DNA from: Phycisphaerae bacterium
GTDB taxonomy: Bacteria > Planctomycetota > Phycisphaerae > UBA1845 > UTPLA1
Reading direction: 5' to 3'
DNA length: 64,000 bases
Assembly: GCA_019636475.1 (NCBI GenBank)
Contig: JAHBXN010000015.1
Location: 1 to 64,000 of the forward strand
Shown here: positions 16,386-23,254 of the stretch, one piece after another
Numbering within the stretch: the first letter of the stretch is position 1
Layout: each line of letters begins with the position of its first letter
Program-made: the position numbers and the translations under genes
The notes under the pieces: generated by a model
What the model saw: the letters and a program-made list of their open reading frames with translations, nothing else
The model's database searches: none
Told to the model about the DNA's origin: nothing

Positions 16386-17390
16386 ATGGGATCAGAATCA
16401 ACAACATTCGTTGCCCGCAACGCCACGATCGAAGACGCCCGAATGCGAGCGGATTCGGTCCTGCGCGACTGGCGCGGCCGTGGAAAAATCGCCGTCTTCG
16501 CTGCCGGTGCCCACACGGCCAAGATTCTGCCGATCCTCGAAGCATATGCCGATCGCATCGCGGGCATGATAGACGATTCGCCGCTTCAATGGGGGCGTCG
16601 TGTCGGGCCTTGGAACGTTGAGCCCGCATCAAAAGTAATTGACGGCTCGGTATCGGGAATCCTCATCTCTTCGGATGCGCAACAGGAAGCGCTGGCCGCT
16701 CGTGCCCGCGCTGAATTCGGCCGCGACTGCGCGATCCTAACGCTCTACCCGCCGAAAGACGCGGATCCCGGCGCGCCGCATCTTCCGTTTACCGGAGAAC
16801 GTGTCACCGCAGAGGCACTGGAACAGGTCGAGATCGGCCATCGGGTCCGATACTATTGGGCCTTGCAGCATCTGGGACGCGACGAAAAAGTCCTCGACGC
16901 CGCCTGCGGCAACGGCTACGGTTCGAAAATCCTGGCGGACGGTGGGTGTCACGTCCTGGCAATCGATATCGCGGAAGATGCGATTGCGTTCGCTCGCCAC
17001 TACTACGGGCACGAGCGAATCGACCATATCTGTGCATCCATCGACGACGCCGCCACAAGTGACCTCGTTGCAGGACACGGACCATTCGACAGCGTGATCT
17101 CATTTGAAACCATCGAGCATCTGCACGATCCGAGCCGTTTTCTGCATGCAGTGTTCAGTGCCTTGAAACCCGGCGGTTGTCTGTATTGCTCGACACCCAA
17201 TGGAGATCACATTCCCGTCGAGGATTCAAAATTTCACGTGAAACACCACACATGGCGTGAAATGCGCGCGCTCCTGAATTCCATCGGATTCATTGCTTTC
17301 GAATGGTTCGGCCAGGAAGGATTGCAGATTCTGCGTGGTCGCGCAACGGAGCGGCAGCGTTATTGCCTCTATCACGCGCGCAAGCCTTGA
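16386..17390 (+). CDS. SAM-dependent methyltransferase with N-terminal Rossmann-like domain
   Basis: A 334-residue protein. Residues ~15-120 (GRGKIAVFAAGAHTAKILP, then a strand and turn at MIDDSP) look like the small nucleotide-binding domain found in front of sugar acyltransferases and some C-methyltransferases. Residues ~150-300 are a class I methyltransferase: VLDAACGNGYGSKIL is motif I, VLAIDIA motif II, and SFETIEHLHDPSRFL with LKPGGCLYCSTPN complete the fold. The combination suggests a sugar- or surface-glycan-modifying enzyme; the substrate is inference. The open frame extends upstream to 16245, overlapping the previous gene, but ATG 16386 gives a compact start. Confidence 0.78.
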   Translation: MGSESTTFVARNATIEDARMRADSVLRDWRGRGKIAVFAAGAHTAKILPILEAYADRIAGMIDDSPLQWGRRVGPWNVEPASKVIDGSVSGILISSDAQQEALAARARAEFGRDCAILTLYPPKDADPGAPHLPFTGERVTAEALEQVEIGHRVRYYWALQHLGRDEKVLDAACGNGYGSKILADGGCHVLAIDIAEDAIAFARHYYGHERIDHICASIDDAATSDLVAGHGPFDSVISFETIEHLHDPSRFLHAVFSALKPGGCLYCSTPNGDHIPVEDSKFHVKHHTWREMRALLNSIGFIAFEWFGQEGLQILRGRATERQRYCLYHARKP

Positions 17391-19920: not shown

Positions 19921-21396
19921 TCAACGCGCTGCCGCGTGGGACGACCGCGACGACCTGCCGCATCGACGTCGTGTGGACCGCCGAACAGCAGCGAGTCCGG
20001 CAAACATCATCGGAGCAAACATCATCGCGCCGTCTCCGCAGACGCCGCACAGCGGCGCCTCCGCGCCGGGACCGTCGTTGTTGTCGTTTGCATTGTTGTT
20101 TGCGTTGCCATTTCCATTGCCATTGCCGTTATCGTTGTCGTTATTGTTGTTGTTGTTGTTGTTGTTGTTTCCGTTGTCATTTGATTCGGCGATCTCGTAG
20201 CGAAGCACCCGATTGTTCAGCCGATCACCGGCATAGAGATTGCCATCGGCATCGGTCGCCACGCCACCAACGTCCTGCAGACTGTTCGCGCTGACGCCGC
20301 CCTTGTTGGCCAGCTTGGTCGTGAAATCACCGTCCTGACCGAGCACCCGATCGGCCACGCTGTTCGTTTCGGGCGTTTCGAACTCCAGTATCCGATTGTT
20401 GATGGCGTCCGCGACGTACAGATTCCCGGTCACAGGATCGATTGCGACATAGACCGGCCCGTTCATGCTGGAAGCCGACACGTCCGGATCGTTTGCATTC
20501 CCTCCGCTGAAATCCGCCTGGCCATAGACGCGCGTCGCGTTCATATTGTCCGTGAGCGGCGGCTCAAACCGCAGCACGCGGTTGTTACCCTCATCGGCGA
20601 CATAAACATTGCCGTCCGAATCCACGCCGACCCCGATCGGATTATTAAGTGTATTGGCGCCCGGAACCGGATTGTTGTCGTCCTGGTTTCTTTGAGCCTT
20701 AGTCAAATCGACTTGCCCGAGCACCGTATCCGCCTGTTCATCCGTATTGACCGGATCAAGATACACGACCACCCGGTGCAGGAAACGATCGGCAAGATAA
20801 AGATTGCCCTGCGCGTCCAGTGCGATGCCGTCCGGGTTTCCCATGTTGAATGCGTTGGCGTTCATGGCATTTGCCTGGTCGTTCTTTGTGAAATCCCCGT
20901 TCTGGCCGAAGACCTGAACGGCTTGCATGCCGTTTGTGATGGGCGGATCGTAACGCAGCACGCGCTTGTTGCCGGAATCGGCGACATAGACGCGGCCGTC
21001 CGCGTCCACTGCGACGCTTCGCGGGTCGAAAAGGGTTGTCGCGTCAGGCGCATTGTTGCCCCGATTGCTATCCACATCGGTAAAAGTCGCCTGTCCCAGA
21101 ACGATGTCCGCATTGTCGCCACTTGCGAAACCGGCGGCGCTGGGCCAACTCAACACCCGATTGTTCCCGGAGTCAGCGACCCACAATCGACCGGACGAAT
21201 CGACAAACAGCCCACGATTTCCGTTGAGACTTCCGGCGCCTGCGCCGCCCTGGTTGATCCCGTTGGTGCTGAAGTCACTCTGGCCGATGACTGCATCCGC
21301 TGTGGCATCTTCCGGCGCAGCCCATACGGGGCTTGCCGCCGCTCCGATTGCAAGCAGGGCAATCAGACGGATGATTCGATTTCGCATCACTTTCAT
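19921..21396 (-). CDS. secreted NHL-repeat protein with Asn-rich linker and Cys/Arg C-terminal tail
   Basis: A 491-residue protein. A signal peptide (MRNRIIRLIALLAIGAAAS, cut near VWAAPE) precedes six NHL-type beta-propeller blades, each with a V/LxVADxxNNRVL core. A ~35-residue linker is almost pure Asn, Asp and Gly. The tail holds CGVCG, a short hydrophobic segment (MMFAPMMFAGLAAV) and an Arg-rich end, which is the layout of a C-terminal sorting signal. The start at 21396 has a GGAGAGAG site. NHL propellers bind proteins or ligands; no enzymatic residue is evident. The long plus-strand frame across it is a shadow. Confidence 0.85.
   Translation of the reverse strand: MKVMRNRIIRLIALLAIGAAASPVWAAPEDATADAVIGQSDFSTNGINQGGAGAGSLNGNRGLFVDSSGRLWVADSGNNRVLSWPSAAGFASGDNADIVLGQATFTDVDSNRGNNAPDATTLFDPRSVAVDADGRVYVADSGNKRVLRYDPPITNGMQAVQVFGQNGDFTKNDQANAMNANAFNMGNPDGIALDAQGNLYLADRFLHRVVVYLDPVNTDEQADTVLGQVDLTKAQRNQDDNNPVPGANTLNNPIGVGVDSDGNVYVADEGNNRVLRFEPPLTDNMNATRVYGQADFSGGNANDPDVSASSMNGPVYVAIDPVTGNLYVADAINNRILEFETPETNSVADRVLGQDGDFTTKLANKGGVSANSLQDVGGVATDADGNLYAGDRLNNRVLRYEIAESNDNGNNNNNNNNNNDNDNGNGNGNGNANNNANDNNDGPGAEAPLCGVCGDGAMMFAPMMFAGLAAVRRSTRRRCGRSSRSSHAAAR
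20144..20170. repeat. GTT/AAC trinucleotide repeat
   Basis: About nine consecutive GTT units on the plus strand encode the run of ten Asn residues in the NHL protein's linker. The tract can gain or lose units without changing frame, so linker length may vary between strains. Confidence 0.85.
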
Positions 21397-21727
21397 CGTT
21401 TGCTCTCTCCAAAGATTCTCTCGCAGCCCAAGTTGGATGGGATTGCGCCTCACATCAGATAACGAAAAATCCAACAAACGACCTTCTCCTGTAGTCTTGC
21501 TCAGTGTTTCTCAACGGCTCACAACCAAGGACCGGGCAGTTGGGACAGCAACTGCCGCGCCGGGGCGCTCCGAATTCCCAAAACACGTGTTTCATCAGGA
21601 AATGCACGACCAGCCGACCGCCGGAGATCGAAATGTGGTAAAGAGCGGGGGATTTTACCCAATTGGGGAATTTCGCAATCGGGGGTTACACCCACCCACC
21701 AGCAACCGATTCAGTGACTGGCGCTGG

Positions 21728-22204
21728 TTAAGATCCGGCGGGACGCGCTTTGGAGACCAGCGGCTCGATGCATACCGCATCGCCCTGTGCGGCACATTTT
21801 CCAGCTGCTGATCGTTGTTGCAGGAGATTGATAATCGCGTTGGCCCCCCGCCGAACCGCCACGGCTTTCAGGGCGTTGGTCGCGTCGGTCGGCGTTCGAT
21901 AGCCCTCGACGAATACCGCTTCGACCTGACGAACGATTTCGTAGCCGGCGACCGACGCCGTCGAGCTGGTCGCGATAATCCCACCCGCCATCAGCCGATC
22001 TGATTCCATTTCCTCGTCGCTGTGGCCCCCATAGTTCTGGAGCTTCGGATGAAGTGTCACCGGCTTGCCGCGACGTCGAACGGCGCGGACGAGTCGGCCG
22101 ACGAATCTGGTCAATCGCTGTAGCACGAGCAAAGCCGCGAGGGCGGCAACAATGAGAATCAGCAGCGGCTTGTTGTTCTGGAGCCAATCCAAGAGGGCTT
22201 GCAT
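21728..22204 (-). CDS. membrane-anchored YbjQ/heavy-metal-binding-like protein
   Basis: A 158-residue protein with one N-terminal membrane helix (LLILIVAALAALLVL), a basic linker, then a domain with SVAGYEIVRQVEAVFVEGYRT and AVAVRRGANAIINL. This pattern resembles the YbjQ/UPF0145 fold, in which a repeated hydrophobic core oligomerises; the call is tentative. There is no Shine-Dalgarno site before ATG 22204, and a TAGAAT -10-like box lies only 9-14 bases upstream, so the message may be nearly leaderless. The frame extends to a TTG at 22273. Confidence 0.6.
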   Translation of the reverse strand: MQALLDWLQNNKPLLILIVAALAALLVLQRLTRFVGRLVRAVRRRGKPVTLHPKLQNYGGHSDEEMESDRLMAGGIIATSSTASVAGYEIVRQVEAVFVEGYRTPTDATNALKAVAVRRGANAIINLLQQRSAAGKCAAQGDAVCIEPLVSKARPAGS

Positions 22205-22374
22205 GGTCTGGTATTCTAACGTCCGGCCTTTTTTCTCAAATGCCGCGTCCGCAAATCCGCGCTCGCGTGGCAATAAGGTCGCGCGCCACGGCCCATGAGT
22301 GCGTCAGCTTGCAGAAACGCGGATTACCGGATCGCGGCGAGTTGATTTTTCCCGTCCCAGCCACCTAAAGAATG

Positions 22375-22639
22375 TCATGGATTAGAGGGCGGCGGGTATT
22401 GCGACGCCGGAGATTGAGATTCGGAAAACCAGCCAACCTGCGTACCGGGGGAACGCGCTAACGATGTGTCGGAGCTGCGGGTTCGGATCCGCAAGAAAGC
22501 ATTCGCCTCTCTAAAACCTGCCCCCTGTCAGGCTGGTCCCCCTGACCAGCCTGTTCATGCCCCGCAGCGATCGAGGCCCTCTCGATTGCGCCATCGTGAC
22601 GTCGCGTCGAATCACTCATACTCGGCGCGACGTTTTTTT
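22375..22639 (+). ncRNA. candidate structured noncoding RNA
   Basis: This gene-free stretch contains, in order, hairpins TGCGG/CCGCA (22476-22493), CAGGCTGGTC/GACCAGCCTG with a 5-base loop (22529-22553), ATCGAG/CTCGAT (22570-22586), and then an intrinsic terminator with seven T. No plus-strand gene lies within 4.8 kb upstream, so the terminator must end a transcript that starts here. A weak promoter (TTGATT at 22342, 18-base gap, TAAAGA) would start it near 22375. Signatures of SRP RNA, RNase P RNA and tmRNA were looked for and not found. The 5' end is a guess. Confidence 0.4.
22600..22639 (+). terminator. intrinsic terminator of the candidate RNA
   Basis: An 11-base stem (CGTCGCGTCGA with TCGGCGCGACG, one T-G pair) closes an 11-base loop and is followed by seven T at 22633-22639. 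Confidence 0.85.
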
Positions 22640-22721
22640 GTCCATTCAATCTACCAGATGATCGCGAATGAGGCCGATTCGGCTTTCCCCGGGGTCGGAC
22701 CTTTCTCATTCCGAATCGCTC

Positions 22722-22750
22722 TTGCCAGAACGGATTCGGTGGTCTTTAAT
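22722..22750 (+). promoter_or_regulatory. sigma-70 type promoter of tRNA-Glu
   Basis: TTGCCA (5 of 6 to consensus) and TTTAAT (5 of 6) are separated by 17 bases. Transcription would start near 22757, giving a 5' leader of about 47 bases before the tRNA. Confidence 0.7.
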
Positions 22751-22803
22751 ACCCGTCCCCCTTAAGTCATCCGAGGCGGATGAATCGCCCCGGACGCACC
22801 CAG

Positions 22804-22876
22804 GCCCCCATCGTCTAGAGGCCTAGGACACCGGCTTTTCATGTCGGCGACAGGGGTTCGAATCCCCTTGGGGGTG
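22804..22876 (+). tRNA. tRNA-Glu (anticodon TTC)
   Basis: A complete cloverleaf. The acceptor stem GCCCCCA pairs with TGGGGGT (first pair G-T), the D-arm is TCTAGAGGCCTAGGA, the anticodon stem CCGGC/GTCGG holds loop TTTTCAT with TTC at its centre, and the T-arm is AGGGG-TTCGAAT-CCCCT. The discriminator is G and the CCA end is not encoded. It has its own promoter and terminator, so it is a single-gene unit. Confidence 0.97.
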
Positions 22877-22879
22877 CTT

Positions 22880-23254
22880 TCAGACGAGCCCTTCAGGCCC
22901 CACGGCTTGGAGGGTTTTTTTGTTTTTTGGCGACGACCCGACCGGCGCCGCCTCGCCCTCGTCCTTTGCGAACCAGGTCGATCGCTCATCGCCCCGTCTG
23001 TCGGTCGTTTCGCCGGCTCCCGGCTGATTCACACGGCGACAGACTTCCCCGGCGTCGTATGACTCTTTCACAGATCGCCAGAGGCGGCGATTCATCACGA
23101 GGAAGACTGCCATTGCAACGGCACTCGGAAGCACGATCGGCGGTACCGGGCCCGCATAGGTTTTCATGGCGAAGATTACCGTCGCGGCAGCGACCGCACT
23201 GAACAATAGTCCGGCCATTGAGTGCTTCAAGCCAATCTTCGTCTGAGCCCTCAT
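22880..23254 (-). CDS. small two-helix membrane protein
   Basis: A 124-residue protein of unknown function. Two hydrophobic segments (MAGLLFSAVAAATVIFAM and VLPSAVAMAVFLVM) are followed by a hydrophilic, charged tail. The start at 23254 is supported by an AGGGGGAA site. The last codons run through the stem of the tRNA-Glu terminator on the opposite strand, so the convergent ends overlap. No family was recognised. Confidence 0.6.
   Translation of the reverse strand: MRAQTKIGLKHSMAGLLFSAVAAATVIFAMKTYAGPVPPIVLPSAVAMAVFLVMNRRLWRSVKESYDAGEVCRRVNQPGAGETTDRRGDERSTWFAKDEGEAAPVGSSPKNKKTLQAVGPEGLV
22889..22921 (+). terminator. intrinsic terminator of tRNA-Glu
   Basis: The arms CCCTTCA and TGGAGGG (one T-G pair) enclose a 12-base loop and are followed by seven T. 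It overlaps the end of the convergent small membrane-protein gene. Confidence 0.88.

Follow-up and report, generated by a model that had tools for sequence, protein, structure and literature searches.

We describe here a conserved structured RNA gene in the genome of a Phycisphaerae bacterium (Planctomycetota). It was found in a contig stretch of 64,000 nucleotides, referred to as the window throughout (JAHBXN010000015.1, positions 1 to 64,000). Comparison of related genomes leaves hardly any doubt that the gene is real. It probably encodes a stand-alone small RNA, here of about 260 nt (about 22378-22639), of which a 3' core of about 120-130 nt is conserved. This core would consist, in order, of a run of C bases (C-run), hairpin 1, a linker of sequence TGCCCCGC, hairpin 2 and an intrinsic terminator. 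Positions 22375-22639 fall into the gap between a minus-strand gene and a tRNA-Glu gene, and the predicted parts of the RNA and its neighbours are as follows.

21728-22273, minus strand: divergent neighbour gene, 181 aa, with a hydrophobic segment near the start (read by eye)
22342-22371, plus strand: candidate promoter, TTGATT, 18-base spacer, TAAAGA, a one-base variant of the motif in relatives
22378-22520, plus strand: putative 5' domain, poorly conserved in sequence and length in the alignments, start inferred
22521-22525, plus strand: C-rich segment 1, CCCCC; of these, the four C at 22522-22525 are shared by all 12 members
22529-22553, plus strand: hairpin 1, 10 bp, loop CCCCT, double-sided change in 8 of 10 modelled pairs
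22558-22565, plus strand: C-rich segment 2, linker TGCCCCGC, identical in all 12 members
22567-22589, plus strand: hairpin 2, 9 bp, loop GCCCT, double-sided change in 4 of 9 modelled pairs
22599-22639, plus strand: intrinsic terminator, 12-bp stem, 11-base loop and T tract, double-sided change in 9 of 13 modelled pairs
22804-22877, plus strand: tRNA-Glu (TTC), often found beside the RNA and preceded by a promoter-like block of its own

An earlier note on this DNA had proposed four tandem hairpins between 22375 and 22639. The last three (22529-22639) are conserved, but the sequence of 22375-22520 is not. The perfect 10-base stem described there is that of hairpin 1, in which 22529-22538 pairs with 22544-22553 at all ten positions. 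Likewise, the proposed intrinsic terminator is borne out by a 12-bp stem (22599-22610 with 22622-22633) that runs into TTTTTTT, the T tract extending to 22639. A terminator scan missed it, presumably because its loop of 11 bases exceeds the scan maximum of 8. The start predicted from the promoter variant, about 22378, lies close to the left boundary drawn in the earlier note (22375). Its statement that no plus-strand gene lies shortly upstream is also correct, since the last convincing one ends at 17390, about 5 kb away, on the assumption that plus-strand open reading frames opposite minus-strand genes are spurious. The two longest open reading frames in the gap (22466-22765 on the plus strand and 22458-22709 on the minus strand) have no Pfam match. 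Fold stability of the window sequence is only modestly unusual (z-score -2.46; 3 of 200 shuffles are as stable), and the fold of the minus strand is unremarkable (z-score -0.67). The decisive evidence for the RNA is comparative.

When 114 genomes of the order were searched by DNA similarity with the RNA as query, none of the matches was a convincing relative (best non-self E 0.0012). They were short and scattered, a number of them around 22462-22490, a stretch that is not conserved in the true homologues. It was the neighbour protein that led to relatives: it is present in 10 of the 17 genomes of the taxonomic family (own genome included), in several of them just beside tRNA-Glu. Nine syntenic or protein-only regions were fetched, and a motif search showed the RNA in five of them (G005, G014, G016, G008 and G007); a sixth, G010, was recovered later by a model, and G003, G004 and G006 had none. 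The window and the five synteny-derived loci were combined in a covariance model (R1), which was run over the 114 genomes of the order. R1 recovered six unseen homologues (G012, G010, G013, G002, G001 and G015) at 76.6-93.2 bits (E 1.1e-15 to 7.6e-20), and the next match below these reached 27.6 bits. Three of the six (G012, G001 and G015) adjoin a tRNA-Glu gene, and as this tRNA was not used in finding them, the adjacency is independent support for orthology. With a second model built from all 12 sequences (R2), one strong copy is found in each of 12 of the 17 family genomes (98.4-120.9 bits), covering 7 of 12 genera; a tally of 13 genomes and 8 genera would include a weak match in G011. G016 holds a second, weak match (L134, 29.9 bits). 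Neither DNA similarity search nor Rfam detects this RNA, whereas synteny followed by a covariance model does. The 12 homologues are not independent observations, because members of one genus are related and three come from genus g6, three from g2 and two from g3.

Strong copies are lacking in five of the 17 family genomes (G003, G004, G006, G009 and G011). In G006 both neighbours are kept with only about 150 bases between them, hence the RNA is absent from its place there. Outside the family the best scores were 28.9 bits among 397 genomes of the class and 29.2 bits among 392 genomes of the phylum; these large searches use stricter filters, so that divergent members could be missed. None of the weak matches from beyond the family, which reach 29.2 bits at most, was accepted as a member. 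In the eight weak-match loci that were read, seven from outside the family plus L134, the C-run, the linker and the terminator never occur together. One of them, L118 (about 1500-1560; G256, same class, another family, 28.9 bits), has a hairpin, ATATGCCCCGC and a hairpin in register, without C-run and without terminator. This partial match may be a distant relative or due to chance. L121 carries an isolated linker-like string. A pattern scan of named genomes returned 22 loci, four of which are real according to the model (L153, L159, L163 and L170), all from Planctomycetota, planctomycete or Phycisphaerae. The remaining 18, one of them from Planctomycetaceae (L158), were rejected by the model (best 17.0 bits). 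Since the linker was used to locate the first loci and also weighs in the models, the searches may have passed over members in which it is altered. A repeat element was considered and rejected, the other 17 matches in the own genome being only 15-30 bases long.

Alignment of the relatives for compensatory changes had been suggested as a check in the earlier note, and it gives a clear result. The alignment of 12 sequences (A2) was fitted to the R1 model and therefore leans towards it. Pairing holds in 93.4% of its cells, and double-sided change that preserves pairing is seen at 21 of 32 pairs, a compensation that none of 500 shuffles equals. The covariation score is 0.488 versus 0.226 in shuffles (0 of 500). 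Taking five measures together, no shuffle out of 500 reaches four of them and a single one reaches the fifth. When partners were slid by 1-3 columns, pairing fell to 33-44%. RNAalifold predicts 29 pairs on A2, 19 of them with double-sided change. An alignment of six sequences made by MAFFT without structure (A1) has double-sided change in 16 of 32 pairs, again reached by none of 500 shuffles, and its number of pair types is reached by 7 of 500; the A1 structure was derived from A1 itself. With homologues in 12 of the 17 family genomes, the window's own included, with covarying stems and with a conserved terminator, the structured RNA with its own terminator put forward in the earlier note is well supported.

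This compensation also bears on whether the stretch might be a coding sequence and not an RNA. A small open reading frame can be read from ATG/TTG CCC CGC, and similar MPRxxRxPxRSR peptides appear in several members. However, stems that covary by compensation speak against it, in 11 of 12 members the frame stays open through and beyond the terminator tract, a one-base difference changes the frame in G005, G014 and G016, and visual inspection of the 18 bases upstream shows no ribosome-binding site. We consider a coding origin hardly credible.

Sequence evidence also suggests that the RNA has a promoter of its own as well as the intrinsic terminator; the terminator is conserved, and a promoter motif is present in 11 of the 12 members, with a variant in the window. 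The motif, TTGA[ACT]TC followed after 16-17 bases by TA, occurs within 200 bases upstream. In dinucleotide shuffles it is met on average in 0.022 of 12 sequences, with a maximum of 1 over 1000 trials, and the count at four other offsets is 0. The test is post hoc, because the motif was first noticed in these same sequences. The window lacks the exact motif, and its candidate (22342-22371) is one base off. In G015 a different site scores higher against assumed consensus hexamers. The RNA would be transcribed from its own promoter. A cis-acting element, either an attenuator or leader of the tRNA-Glu gene or the 3' region of an upstream transcript, would account for the tRNA-Glu that follows the RNA, with the same orientation, in 7 of the 12 loci (G016 counted from a partial match at a contig end). 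Nevertheless, a terminator precedes the tRNA, G012 has the tRNA gene on the other strand, none was found in the G007, G010, G013 and G002 loci, and the promoter-like block of the tRNA itself is kept in G006, where no RNA copy was found. A cis role is thus very improbable.

Conservation within the RNA is uneven. Mean pairwise identity reaches 1.00 for the linker and 0.89 for the region of the C-run; the stems of hairpin 2 and of the terminator follow with 0.74 and 0.64, hairpin 1 with 0.58 and the 5' flank with 0.28. Among 68 unpaired columns 13 are invariant, namely the CCCC of the C-run, the TGCCCCGC of the linker and one T of the terminator tail. Unpaired invariance that gathers in two blocks looks like a pairing or binding site. 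Conservation extends beyond the C-rich segments, since 18 of the 64 paired columns are likewise invariant. The perfect conservation of the linker partly reflects how members were found, given that it helped to locate the first loci. A CCC in the loop of hairpin 2 is found in 10 of 12 members and is absent in G005 and G014.

We think it somewhat probable, judging from sequence and analogy, that the RNA is an Hfq-independent trans-acting sRNA that works by C-rich antisense pairing. The C-rich segments would pair in trans with G-rich (GGGG or GCGGGG) ribosome-binding or start regions and so repress translation of several mRNAs without the help of Hfq, and the hairpins would serve as rigid spacers. 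Hfq was found in 0 of the 17 family genomes, compared to 5 of 14 named control genomes. The sRNA sX13 is reported to repress mRNAs with GGGG motifs through CCCC loops, for which Hfq is not needed (PMC3771888). With no Hfq found and with the precedent of sX13, repression by C-rich antisense pairing is the most likely way of working. The conserved motifs CCCC and TGCCCCGC, both present in 12 of 12 members, lie outside the stems, but their predicted accessibility varies, in calculations that rest on transcript starts inferred from promoter motifs. In folds of the whole transcript the C-run is often paired, with a mean unpaired probability of 0.53, falling to 0.02 in the window and 0.00 in G015. 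In folds of the core alone it is open, with a mean of 0.85, a value of 0.93 in the window and 0.31 in G016. The linker is open at 0.45-0.56 on average, compared to 0.31 for other C bases. For the member in the window, the predicted fold in which the 5' part covers the C-run is a point against a simply accessible site, unless it hints at a switch. It could be accounted for by masking through the 5' domain, by processing of the RNA or by an error in the predicted start.

Two further explanations start from the same features. A regulated version of the sRNA, in which the variable 5' domain pairs with the C-run at rest and lets go of it upon a signal or processing, would be in line with full-length folds that bury the C-run in G000 (the window's genome), G012, G001 and G015 (0.02, 0.27, 0.11 and 0.00 unpaired), where the core alone leaves it open (0.93, 0.97, 0.78 and 0.99). 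The C-run is, however, open in the full-length folds of G008, G007 and G013 (0.95-0.97), the 5' domain is not conserved in sequence, and the folds use inferred transcript starts, and we regard such gating as rather unlikely. Similarly doubtful is the wider proposal that a lineage-specific family of gated C-rich sRNAs, with this RNA as its founding member, might exist in Planctomycetota that lack a detectable Hfq and control a regulon of mRNAs with GCGGGG-type start regions; here a fast-evolving 5' domain would mask the C-run, and its release would expose two fixed C-rich pairing sites. Somewhat less remote, but still unlikely, is that the C-rich segments bind a protein (KH, cold-shock or a similar single-strand binder) which the RNA would titrate or scaffold. 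Their invariance in sequence would fit, and the fixed 8-base linker, flanked by two rigid hairpins, might just as well be recognized by a protein, but the C-rich segments of the comparable sRNA sX13 act by base pairing (PMC3771888).

Like sX13 of Xanthomonadaceae, the RNA described here has three stem-loops and C-rich motifs, and Hfq-independence, shown for sX13, has its counterpart in the lack of a detected Hfq. In contrast to sX13, where the motifs lie in loops, the invariant C motifs are found in unpaired linkers, although the hairpin loops of the window read CCCCT and GCCCT, and the phylum is a different one. In a search of 22200-22920 against Rfam with lax thresholds sX13 was the best non-tRNA match (20.7 bits, E 0.14). 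Membership in that family (RF02232) was rejected, its gathering score being 50. The earlier note had recognized no common RNA family, and in agreement with this only tRNA passes the Rfam threshold in the window. A search of the 12 loci, spanning 36 kb, gave no Rfam family at E <= 1 that would cover the RNA in its orientation, nor is sX13 listed; a 20-bit match would not reach this E-value limit at that search size. On the opposite strand, L088 has a sub-threshold match to narK (28 bits, E 0.16). Neither tmRNA nor RNase P nor SRP gave a match at E <= 10. 6S RNA (RF00013) was rejected as well, with no match here at E <= 10; it is shaped as a long rod with a central bubble, and three tandem hairpins are found instead. 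A separate 6S match just above the cut-off is present in the genome of the window (L205, G000:C3:352155-352348, 46.8 bits). Altogether 15 of the 17 family genomes have 6S matches at 39-50 bits, and since only 5 are over the cut-off, the Rfam 6S model fits this clade poorly. In Firmicutes, sRNAs of the RsaE/RoxS and LhrC types use C-rich motifs to pair with ribosome-binding regions. The likeness to these is in the C-rich motifs, a relationship in sequence or structure having been judged by the Rfam scans alone. The 6C RNA of Actinomycetales is likewise a small RNA with two conserved C-rich runs (PMC4046766), placed there in two stem-loops of about six C each; its Rfam family gave no match here at E <= 10. 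Rhodopirellula-1 is a candidate structured RNA motif from the same phylum, listed for Planctomycetes and Proteobacteria with no Rfam number in its table row (PMC2864571), so that Rfam scans do not exclude it. Among the papers listed by searches for Planctomycetota sRNAs, we met neither the RNA nor a dedicated Planctomycetota study. As far as these searches reach, and leaving Rhodopirellula-1 aside, the conserved RNA family appears to be new and its functional kind a known one.

Few regulatory small RNAs are on record for this branch of the bacteria; a review from 2022 counts 8 distinct sRNAs for the PVC group versus 345 for Proteobacteria (PMC9029176). A candidate family in genomes without detectable Hfq offers a handle on how sRNA regulation might work without this chaperone, and it suggests that C-rich antisense sRNAs may have arisen more than once, in distant phyla.

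The surroundings of the gene deserve a few remarks. The divergent neighbour gene lies beside the RNA in 7 of 12 carriers. Its 181-aa product has no Pfam or NCBIfam match, and no match to the protein was obtained at E <= 0.001 in carriers G012, G013, G002, G001 and G015. A tRNA-Glu gene is close by in 8 of 12 carriers, G016 again counted from the partial match. In 6 of the 12 loci, the window not among them, a cobalamin riboswitch is located upstream of the RNA and points away from it, which may be plain synteny.

L089 276-470, L091 460-654, L092 329-519, L093 24-241 and L096 925-1113, all minus strand: cobalamin riboswitch
L097 2062-2251, plus strand: cobalamin riboswitch

On the minus strand of the window, 19921-21477 encodes an NHL-repeat protein that has, towards the C-terminus, a long low-complexity stretch rich in Asn, Asp and Gly. 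A 13-base motif, TCCCYCTTAAGTC, is located at 22756-22768, 3' of the promoter-like block and 5' of tRNA-Glu. It has 8 exact matches (L173-L180) in 7 of the 17 family genomes, and a reversed control pattern matched once. All 8 matches are directly upstream of tRNA-Glu genes (4 TTC and 4 CTC), and the motif resembles a conserved leader in the precursor of tRNA-Glu.
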